In this document: piece by piece, positions 4,723-28,477 of the stretch
Position numbering within the stretch: the stretch's first letter is position 1
Layout: every line of letters starts with the position of its first letter
NCBI GenBank assembly: GCA_015491905.1
Contig: WGGC01000100.1
Location: forward strand, 1-64,000
DNA length: 64,000 bases
Source of the DNA: Bacteroidales bacterium
GTDB taxonomy: Bacteria > Bacteroidota > Bacteroidia > Bacteroidales > F082
Direction: 5' to 3'
The notes under the pieces: model-generated
The model's database searches: none
The model's input: the letters and a program-made list of their open reading frames with translations, nothing else
Told to the model about the DNA's origin: nothing
Position numbers and translations under genes: made by a program

Positions 4723-6216
4723 TTAAAGAATTTTTGAAATGGCATCTACCAAAGCTTCTACAGCTCCGGTTATAATGTCGGTACTTGCGGAAAAGCCGTA
4801 ATACATTTTACCTCTGTTTTCTATTTGAACATGTACTTTTCCCATGTCATCGCTGCCACGTGTTATAGCCTGAATAAGAAACTCTTCCAGGAGTATTTTT
4901 CTTTTTACAATCTGTTTTACCGCAGAGAATGCAGCATCTATCGGGCCATTTCCTGAAGCCGTTGCTGATTGTTCTTCACCGTTTATTTTCAATGTTACCG
5001 TAGCCATAGGCACCACTGATTTCCCACATACTACTTGTAATAAGTCCAGACTGACAGCTTTTTCCTTTTTGGAGACATTTCCCAGCAAAGCCTCAAGGTC
5101 ATCATCTTTAATATCTTTTTTCTTATCTGCCAATTCCAGAAACCTGCCATATAAGTCGTCGAGTTCTTTTTTTGATAATTTATATCCAAGCAGCTGAACT
5201 CTGTGTTTTAACGCTGCTCTTCCGCTTCGTGCTGTTAATTCAATGGAGGATTCTTTTATCCCTACTTCTTTCGGATCAATAATCTCATAGTTTTCTCTGT
5301 TTTTCAACACTCCATCCTGATGAATGCCCGAAGAATGGGCAAAAGCATTCCTGCCTACTATGGCCTTATTGGGCTGTACGGGCATGCGCATTAAAGAGGA
5401 AACCAGACGACTTGTCTTATAAATATTTTTTGCTTTAATATCGGTATATACCGGAAGATCTTTATGACTTCTAATGGCCATTACTACTTCTTCCAAAGAT
5501 GTGTTACCTGCTCTTTCACCAATTCCATTTAAGGTAACTTCCACCTGGCGGGCACCGTTTAATATACCTTCTATTGAGTTGGCAGTAGCCATTCCCAGAT
5601 CATTATGACAGTGTGTGGAGAGAATGGCTTTATGAACTCCTTTCACATTTTCCTTAAGGAATTTTATTTTAGCACCGAATTCGGCGGGGAGGCAATATCC
5701 TGTAGTATCCGGAATATTTACCACCGTAGCTCCGGCAGCAATAACAGCTTCAACAACTCTGGCAAGGTACTCATTGTCGGTACGGCCTGCATCTTCAGCA
5801 TAGAATTCAACATCTTCAACAAATTTCTTTGCATATTTTACGGCAGCCACGGCTCTTTCTATAATCTGTTCCGGGGTGCTGTTAAGTTTAAATTTAATAT
5901 GATATGGAGAAGTTCCTATTCCGGTATGTATTCTTTTTCTTTTGGCATACTCAAGGGCCTGAGCTGCTACTTCAATATCTTTCTCCACGGCACGTGTCAA
6001 GCCGCAAATAACAGGATTACTTACGGCTTTAGAAATTTCCTGCACGGATTGAAAGTCTCCGGGACTTGAAACAGGAAACCCGGCTTCGATAATATCTACA
6101 CCCAGCTGTTCAAGTGCTTTGGCAACTTCAATTTTTTCAACCGTATTTAACTGACAACCCGGTACCTGTTCACCGTCTCGGAGTGTCGTATCGAAAACAA
6201 AAATTTTATCATCCAT
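4723..6216 (-). CDS. leuA: 2-isopropylmalate synthase LeuA
   Basis: Condenses acetyl-CoA with 2-oxoisovalerate, the committed step of leucine synthesis. A TIM-barrel catalytic domain occupies about residues 1-275 ([15 protein letters not shown], metal motif [15 protein letters not shown]), followed by linker subdomains and a C-terminal LeuA allosteric domain (about 365-497) that normally mediates leucine feedback. The 497 residues are typical of the shorter bacterial class. It is the first structural gene of the operon. The 155 bases between the leader peptide stop and this start contain a strong intrinsic terminator, so expression is probably set by attenuation. Confidence 0.95.
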
Positions 6217-24559: not shown

Positions 24560-25951
24560 TTAAAATAAAAACCACAGTTGAACATAAAACATATTGTTGT
24601 CACCTGCATTACGTCCTGCACCATCATAATTTGCCGATGCGCCGTTAAATTTACTATAGGTAAAATACTGCATGGTAATTTTTGTGTTTTCCCATGGCAG
24701 ATAATCGAATTGGAAACGAAGTCCGCTGCTGTTAGGCAAACCGTTTGCAAAACCTGCAACAGCCCCCGGAGCATATAATCCAATATTTGAAGTTCCGGTA
24801 AGGTTAAAATATCCTAAAGTGAAATTTAAACCTGGTCTGAAAAAGACGCTGGCATCAGCTCTGAATTTGTTTAATGAATTATTTACACTTGAACTGGCTC
24901 CAGAAGCAAATGATGCGTTTAGAGCTTGTTTTTCATGGATATAAGTTGAATGAAGTGTAAACTGACCTTTATTAAAAGGATATTCATATTGTAAATCAAA
25001 AGCTATATCCGTATAATCGTCAGTAGCACCTGTAACACCTGCAGGGAAAAGTTTTGTAGCTATTCCATAACTACCTATCATTAGATAGGATTTGTCCCAT
25101 TGGTGCTGAAATGCAATTCTCCAATAAGGAGAGGTTCCTTTTAGTGCTCCAGCCACTGAGGCGTCAGGAGGTAAAGCTGCACCCATTTGTGCTGTACGAT
25201 AACCATCTAATTCCAAATAAATTGAGTTTCCAATCATGGCATATCCCCCAACACCTGCTACAGTACCACCGAGATTTTCAATTACTGTGGCAGCTCCGGG
25301 GCCCGGTGCTGTTCCTGATGAAGTATATGGATATCCCCAGGCAGGAGTACTGTTCCAAAGATCCTGTACTGTCGGATTATTATTTATTGTTAACCCATAA
25401 GTAAGAGCGGTTTTTCCTTTCCCCTGATTGGCAAAGCGAATATCTGTATTATCCATACCAAATGTTCCTGAACCATCATCCATGGTAAACTGAATAAATG
25501 CTCCCATGTGAGGTGCAATTTGACCTGCATAGAAAAAACTTAATTGCTGTGGAAATTCAAAATTACCATTTTGAGTTCCGGGAATTGTTTTTGCTAATTG
25601 TGTAAAACCTGTTTGAAACATCAAAGAAACTTGCGGGATATGAAGTAAGTTTAAAATATCTCTTCCACTTTTATCATTTTTCGTGGTTTCTTTTTGTGCG
25701 ATAGTTTTGATGTTTGTTAAAGTGTAACCATTTAATTTAAACTGCCGGCCAAACGAAGTAAGCTCCGGAAAAACAGTATGACATGCTGAACATGCAAGGC
25801 CGGTTTGACGTGCAAAACTCGGAACAGCCATGGCATTGTCGGGGGCTCCTAAAAGAAAAGTAAACAATACTCCTAAACTAAGTATTGTTAATTTGCTTTT
25901 TAAAGAAAAACTGTTTCTCAAGTTCCTTTTTTGAAATAATTTTTTTCTCAT
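24560..25951 (-). CDS. Cyc2-like fused cytochrome-porin
   Basis: A 463-residue secreted outer-membrane protein. After a long signal region (LTILSLGVLFTFLLG, cleavage near NAMA) comes a short heme domain: VPSFARQTGLACSACH followed by TVFPELTSFGRQFKLNGY, with one CXXCH. The remaining roughly 380 residues show alternating beta strands and end in FYVQLWFLF with a terminal aromatic, as expected for a barrel. This layout and the PxFARQTGxxCxxCH block match what I know of Cyc2, the Fe(II)-oxidising cytochrome-porin. Function here is inferred; homologues exist in organisms not known to oxidise iron. A CRP/FNR-type site lies upstream. The following genes in the opposite direction encode a peroxiredoxin and an SQR-like flavoprotein. 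Confidence 0.75.
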   Translation of the reverse strand: MRKKLFQKRNLRNSFSLKSKLTILSLGVLFTFLLGAPDNAMAVPSFARQTGLACSACHTVFPELTSFGRQFKLNGYTLTNIKTIAQKETTKNDKSGRDILNLLHIPQVSLMFQTGFTQLAKTIPGTQNGNFEFPQQLSFFYAGQIAPHMGAFIQFTMDDGSGTFGMDNTDIRFANQGKGKTALTYGLTINNNPTVQDLWNSTPAWGYPYTSSGTAPGPGAATVIENLGGTVAGVGGYAMIGNSIYLELDGYRTAQMGAALPPDASVAGALKGTSPYWRIAFQHQWDKSYLMIGSYGIATKLFPAGVTGATDDYTDIAFDLQYEYPFNKGQFTLHSTYIHEKQALNASFASGASSSVNNSLNKFRADASVFFRPGLNFTLGYFNLTGTSNIGLYAPGAVAGFANGLPNSSGLRFQFDYLPWENTKITMQYFTYSKFNGASANYDGAGRNAGDNNMFYVQLWFLF

Positions 25952-26442: not shown

Positions 26443-27075
26443 ATGTCAGTATTAGTTGGTAAAAAAGCTCCTTTGTTTGAAGCTACAGCAGTTGTAAACG
26501 GAGGAGAATTTGTAGAAAAATTTTCATTGGAACAATACATCGGTAAAAAGCATGTTGTATTTTTCTTTTATCCATTGGATTTTACTTTTGTATGTCCTAC
26601 AGAGATTCTTGCTTTTCAGGAAAAAATTGCAGAATTTGAAAAAAGAAATGTAGCTGTTGTAGGTTGTTCTATTGATTCCCCTCATTCTCATTGGGCTTGG
26701 TTAAACACCGATAAAAATGATGGTGGTATTAAAGGTGTAAAGTATCCTTTGGTTTCAGATTTATCAAAAACTATTTCTGAAAACTTTGACGTTTTAGCCG
26801 GTGAGTATGACTATAACGATGAAGGTGAAATGGAATTTCATGGAGAAGCAGTAGCCTATCGCGGTTTGTTTTTGATTGATAAACAAGGTATTGTTCGTCA
26901 TCAGGTAATTAATGACTTGCCTTTAGGCCGTAGCGTTGATGAGGCTTTACGTATGGTAGATGCTTTACAGTTTTTTGAAGAACATGGCGAAGTTTGCCCT
27001 GCTAACTGGAAACCAGGTGATGAAGCAATGGAAGCATCTCATGATGGAGTTGCTAAGTACTTGAGCCACCATTAA
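26443..27075 (+). CDS. typical 2-Cys peroxiredoxin
   Basis: Reduces hydrogen peroxide and organic peroxides. The 210 residues fit the AhpC/Prx1 group. The peroxidatic cysteine is in FYPLDFTFVCPTEILAFQ and the resolving cysteine in HGEVCPANWKPGDEAM. Its usual reductant (AhpF or thioredoxin) is not nearby. A terminator follows. Codons and context suggest a well-expressed stand-alone gene beside other redox proteins. Confidence 0.95.
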   Translation: MSVLVGKKAPLFEATAVVNGGEFVEKFSLEQYIGKKHVVFFFYPLDFTFVCPTEILAFQEKIAEFEKRNVAVVGCSIDSPHSHWAWLNTDKNDGGIKGVKYPLVSDLSKTISENFDVLAGEYDYNDEGEMEFHGEAVAYRGLFLIDKQGIVRHQVINDLPLGRSVDEALRMVDALQFFEEHGEVCPANWKPGDEAMEASHDGVAKYLSHH

Positions 27076-27307: not shown

Positions 27308-28477
27308 ATGAATAAGATTATAGTTTTAGGAGGTGGTTTTGCCGGTGTTGAAACGGCTATTCGCTTACAAAAACTTGGGCACCATGTTACTTTAGTTTCA
27401 AATAGGGATTATTTGTTTATCTACCCAATTTCAATTTGGATACCAGTTAAGAAAAAGAGTTTTAACGATGTAAAAATTGATTTAGAAAAATTAAAAAAAA
27501 TTCATGGTTTTGATTTGATTATTGATGAAGTGAAAACTATAGATAGTAAAATGCAGACGGTACATTTAAGAAACAGAGTGTTAGAATACGATTATCTGTT
27601 TATAGCATTGGGGATGCATAAAAAGCAATTGAAGGGAGCACAATATGCACATTCTATATGTGGTCATCCTGAAGAATCTGTTGTTATAAGAAAAGAATTA
27701 GATAAACTTATCGCAAAAAAAACCGGAAAAATTGCTATTGGCTTTGGAGTAAATGAAGATGATCCTTCTGCAACGGCTGTAAGGGGTGGCCCGGCATTTG
27801 AGTTGCTTTTTAATTTTAGTTATTATCTCCGTAAAAAAGGATTACAGGATAAAATAGAGTTGCATTTTTTTGCTCCTATGAAAGAACCTGGGCGCCGGAT
27901 GGGGCAAAAGCCTTATGATAAAATGGATTTATTTTTTAAACGTTATAAAATTATAAAACATATAGGAACGGGTATACGTGAAATTGAAGACAAATCAGTG
28001 GCTTTTATGGATGGTACACGTATTGAAAGTGATTTAACTGTTTTTATTCCTGCGGGGGACGGTCATGATGTGATAAAACAATCCGGTTTACCGGTAAATA
28101 AGGCAGGATTTATAAAAATTAATGAATTGTGCCGGGTGAAGGGATTGGAAAACGTATATGCAGTGGGTGATATTGCTGAATTAGGCGGGCCTAAGTGGGC
28201 TGCCAAGCAAGGGCATATCGCAGAGGTTATGGCTGATGTAGCTACTTTTAATTTTCATAATAAAATTAAAGGAAAACCTAAAAGAAAAAGTTATTGGGAA
28301 CAACTGCATATTGTTTGCCTGATGGATTCGGGAGATGGAGGAGCTTTTATTGTTAGAAACCGGAAGCGCGATTTTATTATTCCTTTACCTGTTGTGGGGC
28401 ACTGGATGAAAAAAGGCTGGGGTTTTTATTATAAAAATTCGAAACTAAAAAAGATACCTCGTCTTCCGGGCATGTAG
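27308..28477 (+). CDS. NAD(P)/FAD-dependent oxidoreductase, sulfide:quinone oxidoreductase-like
   Basis: A 389-residue flavoprotein of the NDH-2/SQR superfamily: N-terminal FAD fold VLGGGFAGVETAIRL, second dinucleotide-binding region near residues 135-175, and the C-terminal FAD block LENVYAVGDIAELGGPKWAAKQG. Cysteines in HSICGHPEES and HIVCLMDSGDGG could be the redox pair used by SQR enzymes, which favours sulfide oxidation to quinone over NADH oxidation. No obvious membrane span; a basic C-terminal tail (KNSKLKKIPRL) may bind the membrane. It follows the peroxiredoxin gene after its terminator. NDH-2 remains an alternative. Confidence 0.78.
   Translation: MNKIIVLGGGFAGVETAIRLQKLGHHVTLVSNRDYLFIYPISIWIPVKKKSFNDVKIDLEKLKKIHGFDLIIDEVKTIDSKMQTVHLRNRVLEYDYLFIALGMHKKQLKGAQYAHSICGHPEESVVIRKELDKLIAKKTGKIAIGFGVNEDDPSATAVRGGPAFELLFNFSYYLRKKGLQDKIELHFFAPMKEPGRRMGQKPYDKMDLFFKRYKIIKHIGTGIREIEDKSVAFMDGTRIESDLTVFIPAGDGHDVIKQSGLPVNKAGFIKINELCRVKGLENVYAVGDIAELGGPKWAAKQGHIAEVMADVATFNFHNKIKGKPKRKSYWEQLHIVCLMDSGDGGAFIVRNRKRDFIIPLPVVGHWMKKGWGFYYKNSKLKKIPRLPGM

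Follow-up and report, generated by a model that had tools for sequence, protein, structure and literature searches.

A Cyc2-like monoheme cytochrome-porin encoded in a Bacteroidales genome and the gene neighbourhoods of its relatives

Described Cyc2 systems and the product of the window gene

Cyc2 of A. ferrooxidans, a member of the published Cluster 2, is a monoheme cytochrome fused to a porin, and the order of its rus operon is given as cyc2, cyc1, hyp, coxBACD, rus (PMC2621215). Cluster 1 includes the proteins of Mariprofundus, Gallionellaceae and photoferrotrophic Chlorobium. For Mariprofundus Cyc2 a 16-strand barrel is described, with OprO and OprP as its structural relatives (PMC8406198). 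The same source describes the Cyc2 signature as AXPXFAR[Q/K][T/Y] upstream of CXXCH with PXL after it, the first motif being presented as unique to Cyc2. It also states that the three characterised Cyc2 proteins oxidise Fe(II), and it cautions that what a member does hinges on how close it stands to a characterised Cyc2, large parts of Clusters 2 and 3 being unverified. Iron-oxidising Cyc2 is described as limited to a few Chlorobium lineages (PMC9342728). Cyc2-like genes in Bacteroidota are already known. They appear in PMC6344600 (2019) and in PMC9769843 (2022), the latter reporting four sequences of Cluster II from MAGs of Bacteroidota and Methylomonadaceae at Southwest Indian Ridge vents; in PMC11333457 (2024) Bacteroidetes Cyc2-like genes are given by annotation, and FeGenie is said to have found no cyc2 there. 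The gene described here adds a member to this set, and the neighbourhoods of its relatives are informative.

The window, which is the whole stretch of 64,000 nucleotides that was analysed, carries at 24560-25951 on the minus strand an intact open reading frame that runs from ATG to stop and codes for 463 aa. As judged from the open reading frame list, the sequence, homologues of the same genus and a structural model, its product is a Cyc2-like monoheme cytochrome-porin of the outer membrane. Residues 1-42 (25826-25951) form a putative signal peptide whose boundary was set by eye, with a basic n-region, a hydrophobic core and AMA before V43; residues 17-35, which lie inside it, are a helix in the AlphaFold2 model. 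The mature protein starts VPSFARQTGLACSACHTVFPELTSFGRQFKLNGY. AVPSFARQT at residues 42-50 (25802-25828) fits the published motif and is followed by the heme c site CSACH at residues 54-58 (25778-25792) and by PEL, a PXL, at residues 62-64. The protein contains AVPSFARQTGLACSACHTVFPEL, has one CXXCH in its whole length and ends in QLWFLF, that is in Phe. Its 463 aa compare with a length of at least 365 aa given for Cyc2 in PMC8406198. It was found that C54, C57, H58, P62 and L64 are invariant in 59 aligned sequences, namely the protein and 58 relatives from several phyla. No Pfam or NCBIfam family was matched at E 0.1 and no PDB sequence at E 1, and membership in Cyc2 thus rests on motif, kin and fold.

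The AlphaFold2 model was built from the alignment of the protein with those 58 relatives (58 of the 80 named loci described below). It has a mean pLDDT of 86.2 and a pTM of 0.82, and it displays short helices near the heme site and 16 strands over residues 107-462, the predicted 16-strand beta-barrel being taken as residues 107-463 (24563-25633), up to the terminal Phe. The matches in Foldseek were 16-strand porins, the best being 6ehe (OmpT; E 1.7e-10), and OprO came at rank 17 after Vibrio, Providencia and Comamonas-type porins. VIA-align placed OprO (4rjw) at the top, with Z 22.2 across 324 residues, and gave OprP (2o4v) Z 21.7; since the next porins trail by no more than about one Z unit, the two are tied with them. 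The predicted architecture of heme domain and barrel is as certain as a sequence and a good model permit. The earlier note had read the gene as a single-heme CXXCH domain fused to a beta-barrel with an aromatic end, hence as a Cyc2-like protein in a Bacteroidota genome, and had made the case depend on a 16-strand porin after the heme domain. Each part of this was borne out: there is one CXXCH, the C-terminus is Phe, the motif AVPSFARQT is present, 16 strands are modelled with porins as the solved matches, and a copy from the same genus belongs to a named Bacteroidetes MAG (L072).

A chance origin of the frame is excluded because full-length copies exist in the same genus and the heme block is found in all 80 relatives that were kept. 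An alien origin by composition was considered and rejected: the GC of the gene is 0.38 as against 0.353 for the window, and lies inside the range of four nearby genes (0.354-0.389).

Distribution of relatives and phylogenetic placement

Of the 11 other genomes from the genus, 7 have a full-length copy, at 55-64% identity to the window protein. The host itself has a second copy on C175, which is 59% identical. The copy L072, from MAG Dive100_bin10.60 of the same genus (G001), is 63% identical and is probably among the vent homologues of PMC9769843, which are of the same phylum as the window protein and are placed there in Cluster II; the bin name fits the Dive100 sample, and the text of that paper does not name the bin. 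For the other genera of the family a full-length copy was found in 1 of 24 genomes, a second genome having a weak FARKY-type match only, and no copy was found among 24 genomes of other families of the order. The distribution in genus and family is patchy, most of the genomes being incomplete. FARKY-type heme-porins resemble the window protein in having a single CXXCH before a putative barrel; the sole one found in the family (L031; G022) shows 26% identity over 156 residues, with PAFARKY against PSFARQT. Three partial family copies (L016, L017, L018) stand outside the count of 14 complete copies used below.

A search of the phylum gave some match at E 1e-5 in at least 103 of 395 genomes. Among the matches listed, at least six of these genomes besides the host's own have full-length kin at E below 1e-170, and those from Chlorobiaceae span the heme domain and the first strands only. 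Cluster 1 proteins have the motif and CXXCH in common with the window protein. By BLASTP three Chlorobiaceae Cyc2-like proteins gave an N-terminal match only, with 31% identity over 136-137 residues in two cases and 44% over 59 residues in one. It was also seen that many Chlorobiaceae genomes (f43) have, among the matches listed, one to four heme-porin-like matches each.

The scan of genomes of named species yielded at least 597 stretches, of which at least 581 were confirmed, and the best 80 were kept. These loci are distributed over Bacteroidota (27), Pseudomonadota (23), Acidobacteriota (15), Gemmatimonadota (11), Chlorobiota (1) and Ignavibacteriota (1), two having no phylum. All 80 have [FY][AST]RQT before CXXCH, with 63 of the FARQT and 17 of the FSRQT type. 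Relatives, 31-42% identical over 89-99% of the protein, are also carried by nine Pseudomonadota plasmids. One of these homologues, with 34.6% identity, comes from a strain of A. ferrooxidans. The plasmid matches fall in the kinds of organism named by PMC10654088, where A. ferrooxidans Cyc2 is linked by similarity to homologues in Burkholderiales, Hyphomicrobiales and Acidiphilium. The copy on an Acidiphilium multivorum plasmid (L039, 6890-8258) is annotated in two pieces. The search of viral contigs confirmed no relative of the protein.

Two trees were computed. The quick tree has 92 rows and takes in 59 of the 80 named loci (53 of the 63 FARQT and 6 of the 17 FSRQT type), near-duplicates and two cut loci being left out; the careful tree has 59 rows after removal of long-branch and redundant ones. 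In the careful tree the window protein lies in a 16-row clade (100/100) made up of the genus and family copies together with L073 and L074, and its grouping with this pair has a support of 100/95. The clade was also recovered in the quick tree. It is surrounded by other Bacteroidota and g116 sequences, the support being moderate (86/90, 88/88), and the Acidobacteriota, Gemmatimonadota and Pseudomonadota branches lie outside these surroundings. Four Chlorobiaceae rows, the only ones here from groups that the literature gives for Cluster 1, split from the other 55 at 100/100. Their branch is very long (two halves of 3.09 changes per column in the drawing), and the distance is hence poorly measured. 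It should be noted here that for the family of these rows the check showed only that FMO is present, in 5 of 5 tested genomes, and that their Cluster 1 label is taken from the literature. Both trees place the window protein with the Pseudomonadota, Acidobacteriota and Gemmatimonadota homologues and away from the Chlorobiaceae. The protein is one of the full-length FARQT type, which occurs in Pseudomonadota, Acidobacteriota, Gemmatimonadota and Bacteroidota. Since the rows of the trees hold no characterised Cyc2, the choice of cluster draws on the published descriptions, by which this type probably has its place in Cluster 2.

Partner genes in the host and beside relatives

The host genome contains a single COX1 match. 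It is a CcoNO fusion whose operon also includes CcoP, FixG, FixH and a DsbD-like protein; a cytochrome c follows. On C167 lies a Rieske-cytochrome b pair that includes cytochrome c domains. A cytochrome c assembly protein and proteins with nitrous-oxide-reductase propeller domains were also found. With the cbb3 operon, the Rieske-cytochrome b pair and the cytochromes, a putative route from the outer membrane to oxygen can be drawn from the gene content. Two host cytochromes are candidate acceptors: the one next to the paralogue, and a related one that follows the cbb3 operon. A CXXCH scan of the whole genome gave 125 matches each way as against 48 in the reversed control and was too unspecific. 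Neither RuBisCO nor an MtrB/PioB-type porin was found in the host genome, both absences being weak because the genome is 96% complete. The lack of a RuBisCO match fits a heterotroph or mixotroph. In a separate observation, two nitrous oxide reductase propeller proteins adjoin each other at 898-5623 of L167 (G000:C29:20000-30000), the second having a cytochrome c domain.

The neighbourhoods of the relatives were searched over stretches of 3 to 18 kb, some of them ended by contig ends. A small cytochrome on the same strand lies within 500 nt on either side in 33 of the 61 loci that are readable on both sides; downstream it was found in 32 of 66 loci as against 15 of 336 control ORFs, the control being for the downstream side only. 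This ORF-based count took in 71 of the 80 loci (L095, L099, L106, L121, L126, L132, L146, L148 and L150 being absent). In Pseudomonadota a cytochrome related to that of Caballeronia stands directly downstream in 18 of 23 loci, and both of those scanned have two cytochrome domains. The order matches the cyc2-cyc1 order of the A. ferrooxidans rus operon, as it is given in PMC2621215; the window gene itself lacks a rus-type operon. Of the plasmid records, 8 of 8 have an annotated c-type cytochrome close to the gene, directly downstream in seven and upstream in L035. In the sister locus L073 a cytochrome c frame ends 23 bp upstream of cyc2. This upstream gene (4844-5267) appears to be split over two frames, perhaps by a sequencing error.

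In Acidobacteriota a Rieske protein and cytochrome b are present in 12 of 15 loci, the Rieske match being weak in L137 and L139, and in nine of those 12 the pair lies directly downstream on the same strand. Loci in which the cyc2-like gene is followed by Rieske and cytochrome b are L143, L113, L118, L122, L126, L133, L135, L145 and L151; in L143 (Acidobacteriota) a Pfam scan of the cytochrome b protein gave four cytochrome c domains. Both partners were found in 3 of 27 named Bacteroidota loci, one of which (L075) is the G012 copy. In G008, of the same genus as the host, CcoNO, CcoP, FixG, FixH, a DsbD-like protein, a monoheme cytochrome c and cyc2 are consecutive on one strand. Rieske-cytochrome b adjoins two of the 14 complete family copies (on the same strand in L020, convergent in L027), and a cytochrome c with a cbb3 operon adjoins one (L026). 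In the part of the literature that was searched, no report was found that places cyc2 next to Rieske-cytochrome b genes or inside a metal ATPase cassette.

Direction of electron flow and the donor

Our data are best explained, at somewhat better than even chances, by an outer-membrane monoheme electron-entry protein of the Cyc2 kind, of FARQT type and probably of Cluster 2, with Fe(II) as the most likely donor and electrons passing to a cytochrome c, then to cbb3 and possibly to Rieske-cytochrome b. A soluble reductant, most likely Fe(II), would enter the barrel, and the heme, which the N-terminal domain holds, would take up one electron from it. This electron would leave on the periplasmic side to a small c-type cytochrome, from which a downhill path could lead to the cbb3 oxidase and an uphill path, possibly, to the Rieske-cytochrome b complex. 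Electrons most likely enter from a dissolved donor: inward flow is favoured because the partners that recur beside relatives look like those through which electrons pass downhill and uphill in the A. ferrooxidans scheme as outlined in the literature. By analogy the donor is probably Fe(II), the best guess because it is the substrate of the three characterised proteins of PMC8406198.

Several observations count against this reading. No cytochrome, oxidase or bc gene adjoins the window copy, and seven of the 14 complete family copies, that of the window included, are without the searched partners in the fetched stretch. Among the 11 Gemmatimonadota loci none showed the searched cytochromes and none showed Rieske and cytochrome b together. 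The full-length gene was not found in 4 of the 11 other genomes of the genus, most of these genomes being incomplete. Relatives are present in Caballeronia and Acidipila, which to our knowledge are not known as iron oxidisers, and we know of no biochemistry for the subgroup to which the window protein belongs.

If the donor is Fe(II), a Bacteroidota genus with cbb3, in which no RuBisCO was found, could gain energy from dissolved iron, and the list of possible hidden iron oxidisers would grow longer. In Acidobacteriota and some Bacteroidota, the repeated occurrence of Rieske-cytochrome b genes with cyc2 is a testable hint at the destination of the electrons.

The alternative that survives best keeps the architecture and the inward flow and takes another soluble one-electron donor, for instance Mn(II), Cu(I) or reduced humics; we consider it possible, at a rather low probability. 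Four of the 14 complete family copies, the second copy of the host included, have a heavy-metal P-type ATPase and a small protein of SHOCT type nearby (L019, G000:C175:11000-27000; L028; L029; L030). Three of these four cassettes have a cytochrome c and three a DUF302 protein, and all three of the ATPases scanned have HMBD domains. With paralogues in a metal ATPase cassette, a donor other than Fe(II) is thus conceivable. Moreover, Cyc2 is a proposed Mn(II) oxidase in Ca. Manganitrophaceae (PMC9040806), and the relative L083 comes from a Melioribacter MAG with an isolate name containing Mn. On the other hand, an ATPase match was found in only 2 of the 80 named loci, some 4-5 kb away from cyc2, which makes the cassette appear to be a trait of the genus, and the characterised proteins of PMC8406198 use Fe(II). 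It could be, as a speculation that we think unlikely, that Cyc2 in this genus is an exchangeable electron inlet, with one type wired to cbb3 or Rieske-cytochrome b for lithotrophy and the paralogue in a metal-export cassette oxidising, for example, Cu(I) at the surface and passing the electron to respiration. The paralogues in this cassette would test whether Cyc2 always means iron.

It is likewise improbable that the protein is an outward conduit through which electrons reach external Fe(III) or humic acceptors. Such a role would suit the description in PMC6344600, in which Cyc2-like genes, those of Bacteroidetes included, are more abundant in the anoxic layer of a bog and extracellular electron transfer to Fe(III) or humic substances is discussed. 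The partners of the relatives, however, are terminal-oxidase and bc-type genes, with a cytochrome order known from Fe(II) oxidation in the rus operon literature, and the search of the host genome, which is 96% complete, for an MtrB/PioB-type porin was negative. A porin whose heme domain is structural or vestigial, with no role in electron transfer, would agree with the isolated position of the window copy and with a genus that has paralogues as well as genomes in which the gene was not found; the invariant heme-domain residues in 59 sequences from several phyla and the recurrence of partner genes beside relatives make this very unlikely.

The earlier note had reported a peroxiredoxin and an SQR-like flavoprotein beside the cyc2-like gene in the window and had suggested extracellular or sulfide-linked electron transfer from them. 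By the open reading frame list and profiles both genes are there, the peroxiredoxin at 26443-27075 and the flavoprotein at 27308-28477, on the opposite strand and divergent to the cyc2-like gene, with a 491-bp intergenic stretch between. The flavoprotein scores 99.8 bits against the SQR model, far below its cut-off of 525; its nearest solved sequences are nevertheless SQRs. Sulfide- or peroxide-linked electron transfer with these two proteins, for which their adjacency and those SQR matches speak, is hardly credible and the sulfide-linked role was given up, as the genes are divergent and tblastn at E 1e-6 found relatives of neither in the fetched stretches of 80 named, 17 same-phylum and 6 plasmid loci. 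On its other side the cyc2-like gene has as its downstream neighbour a GPDPase_memb-like membrane protein.
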